Positions 12,346 through 17,717 of a stretch of DNA of 64,000 bases are shown one piece after another. The notes beneath the pieces are model-generated. The model saw only the letters and a list, made by a program, of their open reading frames with translations. It searched no databases and had not been told where the DNA came from. The translations under genes were made by a program, and so were the position numbers. Within the stretch, counting starts at the first letter, position 1, and the number at the start of each line of letters is the position of its first letter. This stretch comes from an uncultured Kangiella sp. (lineage in GTDB: Bacteria; Pseudomonadota; Gammaproteobacteria; Enterobacterales; Kangiellaceae). The stretch is taken from positions 124,001-188,000 of the forward strand of contig CANNDL010000006.1 of the NCBI GenBank assembly GCA_947503435.1, read 5' to 3'.

Positions 12346-13132
12346 GGCTATATCTACTTCCTCTCATTTATTTAAAGTTGCTTCTTTGGGTTCTGGCTCT
12401 AAAGGCAATGCAACATTGATTTCTGCTGGATCTACCAATATCTTAATTGATTGCGGCTTTACGGTTAAAGAAACCTTAAAGCGGTTTGAATTACTGGAAT
12501 TTGACTCTGCTAACTTGAATGCAATATTGGTGACTCACGAGCATCAAGATCACATTAAAGGAGCAGGTGCTTTAAGTCGTCGACTTAAAATACCTGTATA
12601 TGCTACCCAAGGTACTTATTTAAGTGGGAAACTAGGAGAATGCAAGCTCTATCAGAGGGTGAGTCCTTTTGATTATTTGCAATTGAATGACCTTTCAATT
12701 GAATCTTTTTCAGTACCTCATGATGCAAGAGAGCCTTGCCAGTTTGTTATTGAGTACCAAGCTAAACGACTAGGGGTTGTTAGCGATTTAGGTTCAATTA
12801 CTTTACCTATTGTAGAAAAAATGCAAAGTTGCCATGCCTTATTGTTAGAAATGAATCACGATTATGAAATGCTCATGGCTGGCCCCTATCCATACTCTTT
12901 AAAACAGAGAGTAGGAGGTTCTTTGGGCCATTTAAATAATCAGCAGTCAATAGAGCTATTACAAAAGTTGAACTATGATAAGTTAGAGTTCGTAGTGGCG
13001 ACTCATTTAAGCGAGCAAAATAACTGCCCTGAATTGGTTACAAAGCTACTTGAAAATAACTTAGGTAATAATAACGTTAGATACGAGGTTGCATGCCAGC
13101 AAAAAGGCATAAGCTGGTTAACTATAAATTAA
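12344..13132 (+). CDS. MBL-fold metallo-hydrolase
   Basis: LGSGSKGNATLI, VTHEHQDHIKGAGALSRR metal-binding motif, SDLGSI, ATHLSEQNNCPEL. Confidence 0.88.
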   Translation: MAISTSSHLFKVASLGSGSKGNATLISAGSTNILIDCGFTVKETLKRFELLEFDSANLNAILVTHEHQDHIKGAGALSRRLKIPVYATQGTYLSGKLGECKLYQRVSPFDYLQLNDLSIESFSVPHDAREPCQFVIEYQAKRLGVVSDLGSITLPIVEKMQSCHALLLEMNHDYEMLMAGPYPYSLKQRVGGSLGHLNNQQSIELLQKLNYDKLEFVVATHLSEQNNCPELVTKLLENNLGNNNVRYEVACQQKGISWLTIN

Positions 13133-14445
13133 GCTTCAATTGTTATCGGTAACCGAAGAGAAAAATCTGCTCCACCCAGCGTCTCGCTATCCCTTACTTC
13201 GATAGCTCCCTTGTGACGATCGGCAATTCCCCTAACTATTGCGAGCCCAAGTCCGGCACCTCCTGAATCTCTGCTTCGGCTATGATCAAGTCGGGTAAAT
13301 GGTTCAAAAATACGCTCTCGTTTGCCCGGAGGCACTCCGCTACCATCATCTTCAACGTTGATCACAAGAGTATTGCCATCTTTTTTAGCGGTTATAGCTA
13401 CTTTTGAGAAGCTAAATTTTGCAGCGTTTCTAATCAGATTTAAAATAGCTCTTTCGATTAACTTTTGGTCTTGTAAACATTCGATTCCAGAATCAGGCAT
13501 TATCTGCACGTTAAAAGTTTTCTTTGAATATAAAGGTGAAACTTTTTTCACGGCAGCCTCGATTAAGTGAATAATATTAAATTTATCGAGGCTAAGAGCT
13601 TGCTGACCATCTTTCAAGCGAGAATAGTCGAGGACTTCTTTTACTAAAGAATCCAGCTCTTCGAGCGAATCTTCTATGTCGGTTTTTAGTTGTTCCGAGC
13701 GTGTTTGGTCTTGCTCACTTGTAAGTAAGTCAATGGCAAAAGTGATTCTGGCCATTGGACCTCTAAACTCGTGAGCGACCGCATGCATCAAATCGCGTTG
13801 GCTCCGCAGATTATGTTTATGTTCTGCTTGTAGCTGATGAATTTTTTCGACTAACTCAGGAGTATTTTCGGTGACATTTCGAATCACATCATTTTTCTTC
13901 TCTATATACATACTTGAAGAAACATAATTAATGGCTTGATGGGCAGGCTGCAATCGCGAGCGTAAATAGTTATAAGCTCCCCATAAACTAACGCCATTAA
14001 ACAAAATTAAGAGAATTATGTAAGCAATTCCATCTCTGGCATTGACCGCATCATAAGCTTCAGAGTAAGGACCAAGCACTAAGTAACTTTGTTCGTTGAG
14101 TTTCAAGATTCCAATCGGCCCATCTTCATTTTCCACATAAACCTTATATCTTTCTTTAGAAAGTTCGTCTTGAATCTCAGTGGATAGCTCTAATTCAGAT
14201 GGCCTTTTTTGTTTGATATCTTGATTTAAATCGAAGCTTGCTCTATCAACTATAGCTTTAGAGAATCGATATTCATTTGAAGCTAATCGGATATTTAAGT
14301 CGAGTAAATCGCTTCGGACTTCTTGCTGTGCTTTATTATAGTCGAGGTCGGCTGACCAAGGAAAATAAACGTAAAATAGCAAAATGCCAGCGATCGCATT
14401 AACGAGCACTAAAATGGCAGTGAAAATAGCGAGTTGCTTTTTCAT
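13129..14445 (-). CDS. Sensor histidine kinase (RstB-like)
   Basis: Two TM segments, H-box AVAHEFRGPMARI, N-box NLIRNAAKFS, G-boxes DDGSGVPPGKRERIFEPF / GGAGLGLAIV. Confidence 0.9.
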   Translation of the reverse strand: MKKQLAIFTAILVLVNAIAGILLFYVYFPWSADLDYNKAQQEVRSDLLDLNIRLASNEYRFSKAIVDRASFDLNQDIKQKRPSELELSTEIQDELSKERYKVYVENEDGPIGILKLNEQSYLVLGPYSEAYDAVNARDGIAYIILLILFNGVSLWGAYNYLRSRLQPAHQAINYVSSSMYIEKKNDVIRNVTENTPELVEKIHQLQAEHKHNLRSQRDLMHAVAHEFRGPMARITFAIDLLTSEQDQTRSEQLKTDIEDSLEELDSLVKEVLDYSRLKDGQQALSLDKFNIIHLIEAAVKKVSPLYSKKTFNVQIMPDSGIECLQDQKLIERAILNLIRNAAKFSFSKVAITAKKDGNTLVINVEDDGSGVPPGKRERIFEPFTRLDHSRSRDSGGAGLGLAIVRGIADRHKGAIEVRDSETLGGADFSLRLPITIEA

Positions 14446-15131
14446 TGGGCCAGTAAATACCCTTGACCACGAATGGTTTTAATAATGTAGGGAGTTTTTG
14501 GGTCGTCGCCTAATTTTTTTCTTAATCGAGAAATCCGTAAATCAATACTCCGATCAAGGCCATCATATTCGAGCCTGAAAGTTTTTCTATGCAGTTCTTC
14601 GCGGCTGATCACCGCACCAGATTGTTCTGCGAGCAGCCAAAGCAGATTGTATTCGGCAGTTGTTAGGTGAACATTAGTGCCATCTACTCTTACTGAGCGG
14701 CTTTTAGGATCAATAATTACCTTACCGGCTTGAATAATTGAAGAGGCAGTGGGGGAGTTCTCGTACGATTCGAGCCGTCTGAGTAGAGCCCTTAAATGAG
14801 CCAATAGAACTCGCGGCTTTGTGGGCTTAGTTAAGTAGTCGTCGGCACCTGTTTCAAGGCCCACCACTTCATCAATGTCATTATCCATTGCCGTCAGCAT
14901 TAAAATTGGACCTTGATAAAAGTCTCTGACTTGTCGGCAAACCATAAGGCCATCAGCACCTGGAAGCATAATATCAAGAATCATAGCAAGAGGCGGATTA
15001 TTACGCGCATACTCGATGGCGTCGTTACCATTATCTATAATGGTAACGTCGAAATCATTGATTCGAAGGAATTCTGCGGTTAAAGCTGATAATTTATGGT
15101 CATCTTCAACTAATAAAATGGTATTGTTCAT
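14442..15131 (-). CDS. OmpR-family response regulator (RstA-like)
   Basis: Receiver domain (LVEDD, LDIMLPGADG, DDYLTKPTKP) and winged-helix C-terminus (LTTAEYNLLWLL, DLRISRLRKKLGDDP). Confidence 0.92.
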   Translation of the reverse strand: MNNTILLVEDDHKLSALTAEFLRINDFDVTIIDNGNDAIEYARNNPPLAMILDIMLPGADGLMVCRQVRDFYQGPILMLTAMDNDIDEVVGLETGADDYLTKPTKPRVLLAHLRALLRRLESYENSPTASSIIQAGKVIIDPKSRSVRVDGTNVHLTTAEYNLLWLLAEQSGAVISREELHRKTFRLEYDGLDRSIDLRISRLRKKLGDDPKTPYIIKTIRGQGYLLAQ

Positions 15132-15284
15132 GAAAAGTGTTTTTCTATTTGTTATTTAATTCTAAAATTACTAATAAAACAATAAGTTACAGCCATCATA
15201 TATTACTTGCAATTAAAGGTGTAGTCCTTAAAATAGTTTTGTGAATAAGTACTATTTTTCTTAAGAGATATTCCAAAAAATACG

Positions 15285-16538
15285 ATGAATAAAATATTAT
15301 CCTTTAGTTTTACTGTTTTACTATTTTTAGCTTGCCTACCTTCAACATTACATTCAGCAGCCAACATTACTGTTGGAAGCACTAGTTTGCAGTTAAATGG
15401 TATAGCCATACAAAGCGAATTACGCAGCGATTGGTTTATTAATGCCCTGTATCTTTCAGCTAAAAGTACCAATCCTGATGCTATCTTGTCTGATATTAGC
15501 CCTAAACGTATGGAAATGAAAGTTTTAGCGGATAATTTAACCGGTAGACGTCTTAAAAGATTCTGGGTTGAACGAATTCGCAATAACAATGAGCCAAGCT
15601 CAGTATTAGCATTAGCTAAGCAAGTAAGAAACTTTGCTAATGTAATGGGGCAGAATCTAGTAGCCAATGACGTTATTGCTATTGATTTTATTCCTGGCTC
15701 ATCTACTAGAGTAAGCATAAATGGTTCTTTAAGTGCGGAGTTATCTCCTGAATTATTTAATATGATTTTGAAAAGTTGGATTGGAGAGCGTCCGCCTTCA
15801 AATGAATTTAAAGATGCCATTTTAGGCGAGTCGAATTTCGATAGTTTGTTAACTCGTTACCAATCAATCCAACCCTCTGAAGCACGTATTGCTCACTTCG
15901 ATACAAAGCTACAAGAAGAGATCGCAAAGCAACAAAAAGCAGATGAAGAAAAGCGTCTAGCAGAAGAAAGAAAAATTGCTGAAGCAAAGGCCGCAGAAGA
16001 AGCGAAGCTTCGCCAGCAAGAGGTTGCGAACGAAGAAGCAAGGCAAGCTCAATTAGCTGCTCAAGCAAAGGTGCAAGAAGAAGCAAAGCAACAAGAACTT
16101 GAGCGAAAAAGACTTGCTGAAGAGGCTCGTATAGCGGAAGAAGAAGCTTCTAAACCTCCGGTTGTTGAAGTTCCAGCAGGACCTTCTCCAGAAGAAATTG
16201 CACAAATTAAATCTTCTTATACCCGAGCTATTCAAAGGCACTACAGTCCTCATTTCAACTATCCCACTCGTGAACTTATGAAAAGACACGGTAGTTCAGT
16301 ATTCAGTCGCCCTAGAAAAGGACGTACTCACGGTACTGTTAATATTAGTGTTGAAGTTGATCGAGATGGAGATTTAGTGAGCGGTGGTGTAGTTAAAAGC
16401 TCTGGCGAGAAAATTTTAGATGAGGCTGTACAAAAAGCTTTATTCGATGCGGTTCCTTTTCCAGCAATGCCATCTGAACTTGAGGATGAGACGTTTGAAA
16501 CGGTCTTGTCGATTGAGATTCCTGCTCCAACTCGATAA
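15285..16538 (+). CDS. Secreted chalcone-isomerase-like domain / TolA-like coiled coil / TonB C-terminal domain fusion
   Basis: Signal peptide MNKILSFSFTVLLFLACLPSTLHSA. Residues about 30-185 resemble the chalcone isomerase-like family (LNGIAIQSELRSDWFINALYLSAKS...GDxxxIDFIPGSSTRVSINGSL...ILKSWIGERPPSNEFKDAILG). Then an E/K/A-rich stretch, then a TonB-like C-terminus (GTVNISVEVDRDGDLVSGGVVKSSGEKILDEAVQKAL). Confidence 0.7.
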   Translation: MNKILSFSFTVLLFLACLPSTLHSAANITVGSTSLQLNGIAIQSELRSDWFINALYLSAKSTNPDAILSDISPKRMEMKVLADNLTGRRLKRFWVERIRNNNEPSSVLALAKQVRNFANVMGQNLVANDVIAIDFIPGSSTRVSINGSLSAELSPELFNMILKSWIGERPPSNEFKDAILGESNFDSLLTRYQSIQPSEARIAHFDTKLQEEIAKQQKADEEKRLAEERKIAEAKAAEEAKLRQQEVANEEARQAQLAAQAKVQEEAKQQELERKRLAEEARIAEEEASKPPVVEVPAGPSPEEIAQIKSSYTRAIQRHYSPHFNYPTRELMKRHGSSVFSRPRKGRTHGTVNISVEVDRDGDLVSGGVVKSSGEKILDEAVQKALFDAVPFPAMPSELEDETFETVLSIEIPAPTR

Positions 16539-16558: not shown

Positions 16559-16587
16559 GAGGGGCTCAGTTGTAGCCCCTTTATTTT
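16559..16587 (+). terminator. Rho-independent terminator after the TonB-domain gene
   Basis: GAGGGGCTCAGTTGTAGCCCCTTTATTTT. Confidence 0.8.
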
Positions 16588-16607: not shown

Positions 16608-17717
16608 ATGCATATTAATCAAAACTTTGATAGCGGCAATATCTTAGTCAAAGATATTCAAAATAACTCTGCAACTTTAGCCATTCGAACTGATACCAAT
16701 TCAGAGTTCAAACAATGGTTTCATTTTAAGCTTAACGGTAAAGTCGGCGACTCATATGATTTTGTGGTAGCAAACGCTTCCGAATGTTCTTACGAAAAAG
16801 GGTGGGATAACTATCAAGTGGCTGCCTCTTATGATGGTGATTATTGGTTTCGAATAGATACTCAATATGAAGCAAAACAATTGAAGTTTAAGCATACTCT
16901 AGAACACAATAGTATTTTCTTTGCCTATTTTGCTCCTTATTCTTATCAGCGTCACCAACAATTAATTCATAATGCTCAGCATTCAGCCTTATGCCAGCAT
17001 CTAGTATTAGGTGAGACCGTTCAAGGTAGGACCATAGATTTACTCCAAATTGGAGACGCTAACAAAAAACCTCTTTGGGTCACTGCTCGACAGCATCCAG
17101 GCGAAACGATGGCTGAATGGTGTGCAGAAGGACTAATTGATCAACTATTAGATGATAACAATGCTGTTGCGCGAAAAATGCTTAATGAGTACTGTTTTTA
17201 TATTGTTCCTAATATGAATCCAGATGGTTCAGTAAATGGTAATTTACGTTCGAATTATGCAGGCGCTAATTTGAATCGGGAATGGATGGAGCCAAGTATT
17301 GAAAAGAGCCCAGAAGTTTTTTATGTGAGACAAAAGATGCAAAAAACTGGCGTAGCTGGTTATTTAGATTTGCATGGCGATGAGGGCTTACCTTATATTT
17401 TTGTAGCTGGTTGTGAAGGCAATCCAAGTTTTAATGAAGCGTTGGCTCAACAAGAGGCAAACTTTTCTGAAAACCTGAAGCTTATTAATCCTGATTTTCA
17501 AACGGAGTATGGGTACCCTAAAGACGAGCCAGGAAAAGCTAATTTAACAGTGGCTAGTAATTGGGTTGGAGAAAATTTTAATTGTTTAGCTTTGACCCTA
17601 GAAATGCCATTTAAGGATAATGCAAATATTTCCGATGCGGATACAGGTTGGTCTCCGGAACGTAGTTATATTCTTGGAGGATCTTTATTAACTGCTCTGT
17701 TTCAGACATTAAGTTAG
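16608..17717 (+). CDS. M14 family carboxypeptidase (cytosolic carboxypeptidase-like)
   Basis: TARQHPGETMAEWCAEGL (HxxE), NMNPDGSVNGNLRSNYAGANLNREW, YLDLHGDE, LTLEMPF. Confidence 0.88.
   Translation: MHINQNFDSGNILVKDIQNNSATLAIRTDTNSEFKQWFHFKLNGKVGDSYDFVVANASECSYEKGWDNYQVAASYDGDYWFRIDTQYEAKQLKFKHTLEHNSIFFAYFAPYSYQRHQQLIHNAQHSALCQHLVLGETVQGRTIDLLQIGDANKKPLWVTARQHPGETMAEWCAEGLIDQLLDDNNAVARKMLNEYCFYIVPNMNPDGSVNGNLRSNYAGANLNREWMEPSIEKSPEVFYVRQKMQKTGVAGYLDLHGDEGLPYIFVAGCEGNPSFNEALAQQEANFSENLKLINPDFQTEYGYPKDEPGKANLTVASNWVGENFNCLALTLEMPFKDNANISDADTGWSPERSYILGGSLLTALFQTLS

Follow-up and report, generated by a model that had tools for sequence, protein, structure and literature searches.

What does a TonB-type domain do at the end of a protein that begins with a chalcone-isomerase (CHI) fold, known from plant flavonoid synthesis? 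The question is raised by a gene within the 64,000-nucleotide stretch of DNA from a marine Kangiella sp. analysed here (the window), whose product an initial annotation had read as a periplasm-spanning connector. This CHI-TonB fusion is a real, conserved domain combination, and we propose, with a probability of roughly 0.4, that the protein is a secreted, soluble, two-headed adaptor or sensor of the periplasm, which is not energised and would bridge an outer-membrane protein and inner-membrane signalling. A literature search, with most subscription journals outside its reach, found no description of the combination.

Domain architecture and conservation

The domain architecture of the fusion is well supported; its function is one that we infer. 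Firstly, Chalcone_3 and TonB-type families are the only Pfam families over cut-off in the protein. The Chalcone_3 profile (PF16036) matches residues 25-181 (E 4e-26; score 92.5 bits, cut-off 27), and residues 344-406 are matched by TonB_2 (PF13103, E 5.5e-10) and TonB_C (PF03544, E 1.5e-7), both over cut-off, as is the NCBIfam model tonB_Cterm (TIGR01352); the TolA equivalog tolA_full (TIGR02794) stays below its own (22 bits against 59.45). Modelled alone, the tail is predicted with a pLDDT of 81 to adopt a helix-helix-strand-strand-helix-strand order, for which the top Foldseek matches are the H. pylori TonB C-terminal domain (6sly, 5lw8) and a TolA C-terminal domain (2x9a), with E values from 2e-4 to 8e-4. 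The two domains that the initial annotation had named are thus borne out, the CHI-like one by profile search and the TonB-like one by profiles together with AlphaFold and Foldseek. In a full-length AlphaFold2 model built from five close relatives, the CHI part was too poor for use (pLDDT below 70).

Table 1. Features of the CHI-TonB locus, with positions in the window
Feature	Position	Strand	Basis
Membrane histidine kinase with putative N-terminal sensor region, overlapping the regulator gene by 4 bp	13129..14445	-	PF00512, PF02518; same conservation as the regulator
OmpR-type response regulator, divergent neighbour	14442..15131	-	PF00072, PF00486; adjoins the fusion in 9/9 mapped Kangiella loci
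Sigma-70-like promoter of the fusion gene, TTGCAA-16 bp-TAAAAT	15207..15234	+	By inspection; conserved in Kangiella
CHI-TonB fusion gene, ATG start, 417 aa	15285..16538	+	ORF; Pfam; full-length conservation in all 20 congeneric genomes and beyond
Putative Sec-type signal peptide (residues 1-25; probable cleavage by signal peptidase I at HSA/A)	15285..15359	+	Sequence; A-x-A-like ends in relatives
Chalcone_3 (CHI-fold) domain, residues 25-181	15357..15827	+	PF16036 E 4e-26; profile reaches 4doo/4dol
E/K/A-rich stalk, predicted single helix 199-285	15879..16139	+	AlphaFold2 model m49ccd28cfb42; composition; length
TonB/TolA-type C-terminal domain, residues 302-412 (Pfam core 344-406)	16188..16520	+	PF13103/PF03544/TIGR01352; model; Foldseek
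Terminator-like GGGGCT...AGCCCC with T-rich tract	16561..16587	+	Read from sequence, unscored
M14 (cytosolic-carboxypeptidase-like) peptidase, downstream neighbour	16608..17717	+	PF18027, PF00246; also follows the fusion in G020, G076, G094

Secondly, the two domains are joined by a stalk of about 125 residues in the window protein (91-208 residues across the fusions, median 136). AlphaFold2 predicts residues 199-285 as one helix of 87 residues, with a pLDDT of about 70-84 in most blocks, which would measure about 13 nm if fully helical. E, K, A, R and Q make up 65-79% of the stalk in Kangiella and a few other cases, and most of the remaining stalks are Pro/Lys-rich. The E/K/A coiled coil put forward earlier therefore stands for the window protein as a predicted helix and falls as a constant feature, as relatives use a Pro/Lys-rich stalk instead. 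Two conserved ends, with a stalk that switches chemistry at kept length, are as expected of a spacer.

Thirdly, the protein appears to be exported without the membrane anchor of TonB. Its N-terminus resembles a signal peptide, with a hydrophobic core followed by ...HSA/AN (slash, probable cleavage site), and the leaders of relatives end in ...KAAE and ...SAAE. All of the 45 fusions possess a hydrophobic leader except that of locus L133, which is incomplete at its start, and none of the 45 carries an SHLS-like motif; the window protein has no second transmembrane or strongly hydrophobic segment. By inspection, the window protein has no proline-flanked D-box of the kind defined after the TonB anchor (PMC10907165); the CHI domain follows the leader immediately and leaves no room for one. 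The earlier suggestion of a cleavable signal peptide in place of the TonB anchor is hence supported by the sequence. We ruled out a lipoprotein reading of 'LFLAC', because Cys17 of the window protein ('LACLPS') is not kept in relatives.

The annotated absence of exbBD genes nearby also proved correct. No MotA_ExbB profile match was found on the contig of the fusion (C6); the ExbB/TolQ/MotA homologues of the genome lie on C1, C2, C4 and C5, with TonB beside those on C1, and the exbB-tonB locus and six TonB-dependent-receptor plugs are all located away from the fusion contig. The broader idea of a TonB fold used without ExbBD coupling holds in that no sign of direct coupling was detected, but such use is not unprecedented, given VreA (discussed below) and further TonB_C domains that this same genome places in proteins without a TonB anchor. 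Examples are a 123-residue lipoprotein-like protein (L068:4481-4852) and a repeat-rich protein with a signal peptide and an internal TonB_C domain (L067:5292-6620). The genome also encodes what appears by inspection to be an M56/BlaR1-like membrane peptidase, at whose C-terminal end a coiled coil and a TonB_C domain are found (L070:2604-4352).

Every one of the 20 congeneric genomes searched, the window genome among them, encodes the fusion at full length, and so do genomes of the remaining genera of the family and of two further families of the same order (f13 and f14). Full-length conservation at 22-79% identity in many genomes excludes chance, and an annotation or assembly artefact is likewise ruled out. 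Among the matches listed, fusion-length CHI frames in 296 genomes of the order were restricted to the host family, f13 and f14, with the single exception of one long CHI frame in family f6 that lacks a TonB tail. Chalcone_3 occurs in 116 of 369 genomes sampled from the class, never in a long frame with a TonB tail, and the long CHI frames of these other class members were accordingly rejected as further fusions; in nearly all, the CHI domain sits at the C-terminal end and the frame extends upstream of the likely start. In a tree of CHI domains, the fusions group (100/98) with the stand-alone paralogues that neighbour them in this lineage, apart from the rest of the class. Two stand-alone proteins branch from within the fusions, consistent with a single fusion event and a single tail loss. 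Judged from these sequences, the fusion is old and conserved.

Gene neighbourhoods

In the window, the neighbours of the fusion are the histidine kinase/response regulator pair, the M14 peptidase, MBL, bamC and dapA; they include neither an ECF sigma factor with a FecR-like regulator nor an adjacent outer-membrane receptor. The divergent kinase/regulator pair adjoins the fusion, and the M14 peptidase follows it, in the window and in eight other Kangiella genomes. Alignment of 11 intergenic regions revealed conserved CTTGCA.TTAA and CTTA.A.T blocks and no conserved element beyond the sigma-70-like promoter, so that a response-regulator operator at this position was rejected. The terminator-like element suggests that the fusion is transcribed as a single gene in the window genome. 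A 205-residue antisense frame overlaps the start of the fusion gene (15203-15820, minus strand) and was judged to have arisen by chance.

Among relatives, the neighbours vary. In G095 (27 bp), G052 (35 bp), G024 (66 bp) and G076, the gene immediately before the fusion, on the strand of the fusion, encodes a TonB-dependent receptor; these receptors belong to one receptor family, with two families covered. In G021, a single small gene separates the fusion from another TonB-dependent receptor gene upstream. The receptor-paired genomes hold 25-40 receptor plugs each, making it unlikely that the pairing is random, although the f14 cases are orthologous. Sensor-type genes are found as well: a HAMP-GGDEF protein is encoded 39 bp upstream of the fusion in G076, and a HAMP-cyclase and a TPR lipoprotein precede it in G095 and G052. 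In the other genera of Kangiellaceae, most loci have no receptor or kinase, the usual partner being a divergent stand-alone CHI paralogue. The neighbour associations support a role as adaptor or in signalling, though unevenly, with several of them orthologous and not independent.

Some loci merit separate mention. The order HAMP-cyclase, TPR lipoprotein, CHI-TonB is conserved between L078:6003-10158 and L079 (6818 onward). Two tandem fusion genes stand behind one TonB-dependent receptor in G095 (L056:6211-9168), and one relative of the fusion, from G021 (L127:6099-7712, contig C12), combines two TonB-type C-terminal domains; its gene is preceded by those of a TonB-dependent receptor and a thioredoxin-like protein and followed by a porin gene. 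Two 'Unknown' frames of 384 and 929 residues near f14 fusions were judged to be antisense frames in GC-rich DNA, the longer one lying opposite a TonB-dependent receptor. In the window genome (C2), a stand-alone CHI paralogue and a SnoaL-like gene (L064:7836-13864) are next to a photolyase-like gene, with a fatty-acid desaturase/amine oxidase/DUF1365/CMAS/DUF2878 cluster on the other flank, an arrangement that resembles light-stress lipid clusters.

A possible periplasmic adaptor and its alternatives

The domains, the tail fold, the missing anchor motif, the deep conservation and the conserved neighbours are observed. As the fusion has no motor anchor and its genes in relatives stand beside those of receptors and signalling proteins, it probably serves as an unpowered bridge or sensor that spans the envelope; no TonB-ExbBD coupling element was found, and hence it is not expected to energise transport itself. 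Following export and removal of the signal peptide, the TonB/TolA-type tail would dock by strand addition on an outer-membrane protein that offers a TonB-box-like peptide and is most likely a TonB-dependent receptor, while the stalk would hold the CHI head at a distance across the periplasm. The head, presumably non-catalytic and binding a ligand or a partner, would report to, or be read by, an inner-membrane signalling protein, for which the divergently encoded histidine kinase/response regulator is the candidate in Kangiella. The fusion might thereby act as a bridge, a sensor or a reporter of occupancy. Docking partner, signalling role, direction of the signal and ligand are the parts of this proposal that we infer. 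Against it, the window fusion looks monocistronic and has no adjacent receptor, most loci of the other Kangiellaceae genera lack receptor and kinase alike, the fusion promoter shows no evident conserved response-regulator site, and the nearest TonB relative of the fusion by sequence appears to be of the TonB3 type, linked to type IV pili and not to nutrient receptors (PMC5285504).

That relationship could instead indicate a structural connector akin to TolA or TonB3, which would sense no ligand, place its tail on an outer-membrane secretin, porin or Tol component and serve envelope organisation or the assembly of pili or the outer membrane. A profile derived from the fusions scores 50-64 bits against the TonB3-type proteins of relatives (about 300 residues, N-terminal anchor) and 34 bits against the copy of the window genome, which adjoins a YqgE gene, compared with 21-30 bits against the canonical TonBs of that genome; we take these proteins to be TonB3 orthologues from their length, anchor and YqgE neighbour. 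G021 and G037 encode a porin after the fusion, and the coil resembles TolA domain II, with the tolA_full match below cut-off as noted. TonB3, however, is anchored in the membrane by its N-terminus, unlike the fusion, and a purely structural role leaves the pairing with TonB-dependent receptors and signalling proteins unexplained. We consider such a connector rather unlikely, and retain it because P. aeruginosa depends on TonB3 together with PocAB to form pili and to twitch (PMC5285504).

A second alternative is a periplasmic carrier, whose CHI head would bind a hydrophobic molecule while the tail parks at the outer membrane, either receiving cargo from a TonB-dependent receptor or delivering a lipid. 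The receptor-fusion gene pairs of relatives would suit it, as would the occurrence of the stand-alone CHI paralogue of the window genome in a lipid-modification cluster (fatty-acid desaturase, CMAS, DUF1365, amine oxidase), and a search with the CHI profile picks up 4doo (E 2.7e-10) and 4dol, two CHI-fold proteins of plants. We assume that in such plant proteins the Arg of a GxGxR motif and a paired Tyr bind the fatty-acid carboxylate; in the alignment with 4doo, this Arg lies 13 residues before the Tyr that corresponds to F51 of the window protein. 4doo has the Arg, as do 12 of the 17 bacterial Chalcone_3 domains taken from the class, whereas none of the 33 aligned fusions does; in the fusions, the Tyr position is occupied by Y (22), F (10) or A (1); N101, N102, D129, P170 and P171 are invariant in all 33 heads. 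With the Arg absent throughout and Phe replacing Tyr here, the lipid-like ligand initially envisaged for the CHI domain is not supported. Alignments thus favour homology to fatty-acid-binding CHI-fold proteins and not their known ligand chemistry, and we regard the carrier as improbable. Finally, a decoy that occupies TonB boxes, dampens TonB-dependent transport and regulates access of energised TonB would suit a TonB-type tail devoid of motor elements in a genome with receptor plugs and an exbB-tonB locus, but needs neither a conserved CHI head nor a long stalk and is very hard to credit.

If the periplasmic adaptor or sensor that we prefer is real, TonB-type domains also read the outer membrane, instead of only pushing energy there, and the fold of plant flavonoid synthesis gains a bacterial function, in signalling. 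It is conceivable, though doubtful, that the fusions constitute a new class of unpowered trans-envelope signalling adaptor in one bacterial lineage, in which the TonB docking domain would read the occupancy of an outer-membrane receptor and the CHI head would signal to inner-membrane outputs that can stand in for one another (histidine kinase, GGDEF, adenylate/guanylate cyclase).

Relation to known systems

The fusions share the CHI fold and GD, N and W-G motifs with Chalcone_3 proteins and the plant fatty-acid-binding proteins, and differ from them by the missing GxGxR Arg, by R47, N101-N102 and PPS..FK motifs of their own and by the joining of the head to a stalk and a TonB tail. Among the TonB-type proteins compared, the TonB3 (PA0406)/PocAB type has the nearest tail by sequence; unlike the fusion, TonB3 is held by an N-terminal transmembrane anchor and has no CHI domain. 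With TonB energy transducers, the fusion has in common the C-terminal domain fold and a periplasm-spanning linker, whereas the transmembrane anchor, the SHLS-like motif and linked exbBD genes are absent from it. TolA likewise consists of an E/K/A helix followed by an alpha/beta C-terminal domain, but the fusion has no transmembrane anchor, scores below cut-off with TIGR02794, contains a CHI domain and does not conserve the helix among relatives.

The nearest precedent for the bridge mode is VreA (PA0674) of the PUMA3 cell-surface signalling system of P. aeruginosa, a mostly soluble protein modelled as a signalling domain and a TolA/TonB domain (PMC2729926). Like VreA, the fusion has by sequence a signal-peptide-like leader, an N-terminal recognition domain, a linker and a TolA/TonB-type C-terminal domain, with neither a beta-barrel nor an anchor. 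The two differ in that VreA has an STN signalling domain, a 17-residue linker and an ECF sigma factor with its regulator alongside, where the fusion has a CHI-fold domain, its far longer stalk and histidine kinase/response regulator or other sensor genes. No STN domain is among the Pfam families over cut-off in the window protein; in the absence of this domain and of the ECF sigma factor, we do not claim membership of the VreA system. VreA has been proposed to bridge an outer-membrane partner and an inner-membrane regulator, and the same mode is suggested for the fusion, which, if the adaptor reading is true, would be a second, independent case of a VreA-type bridge.
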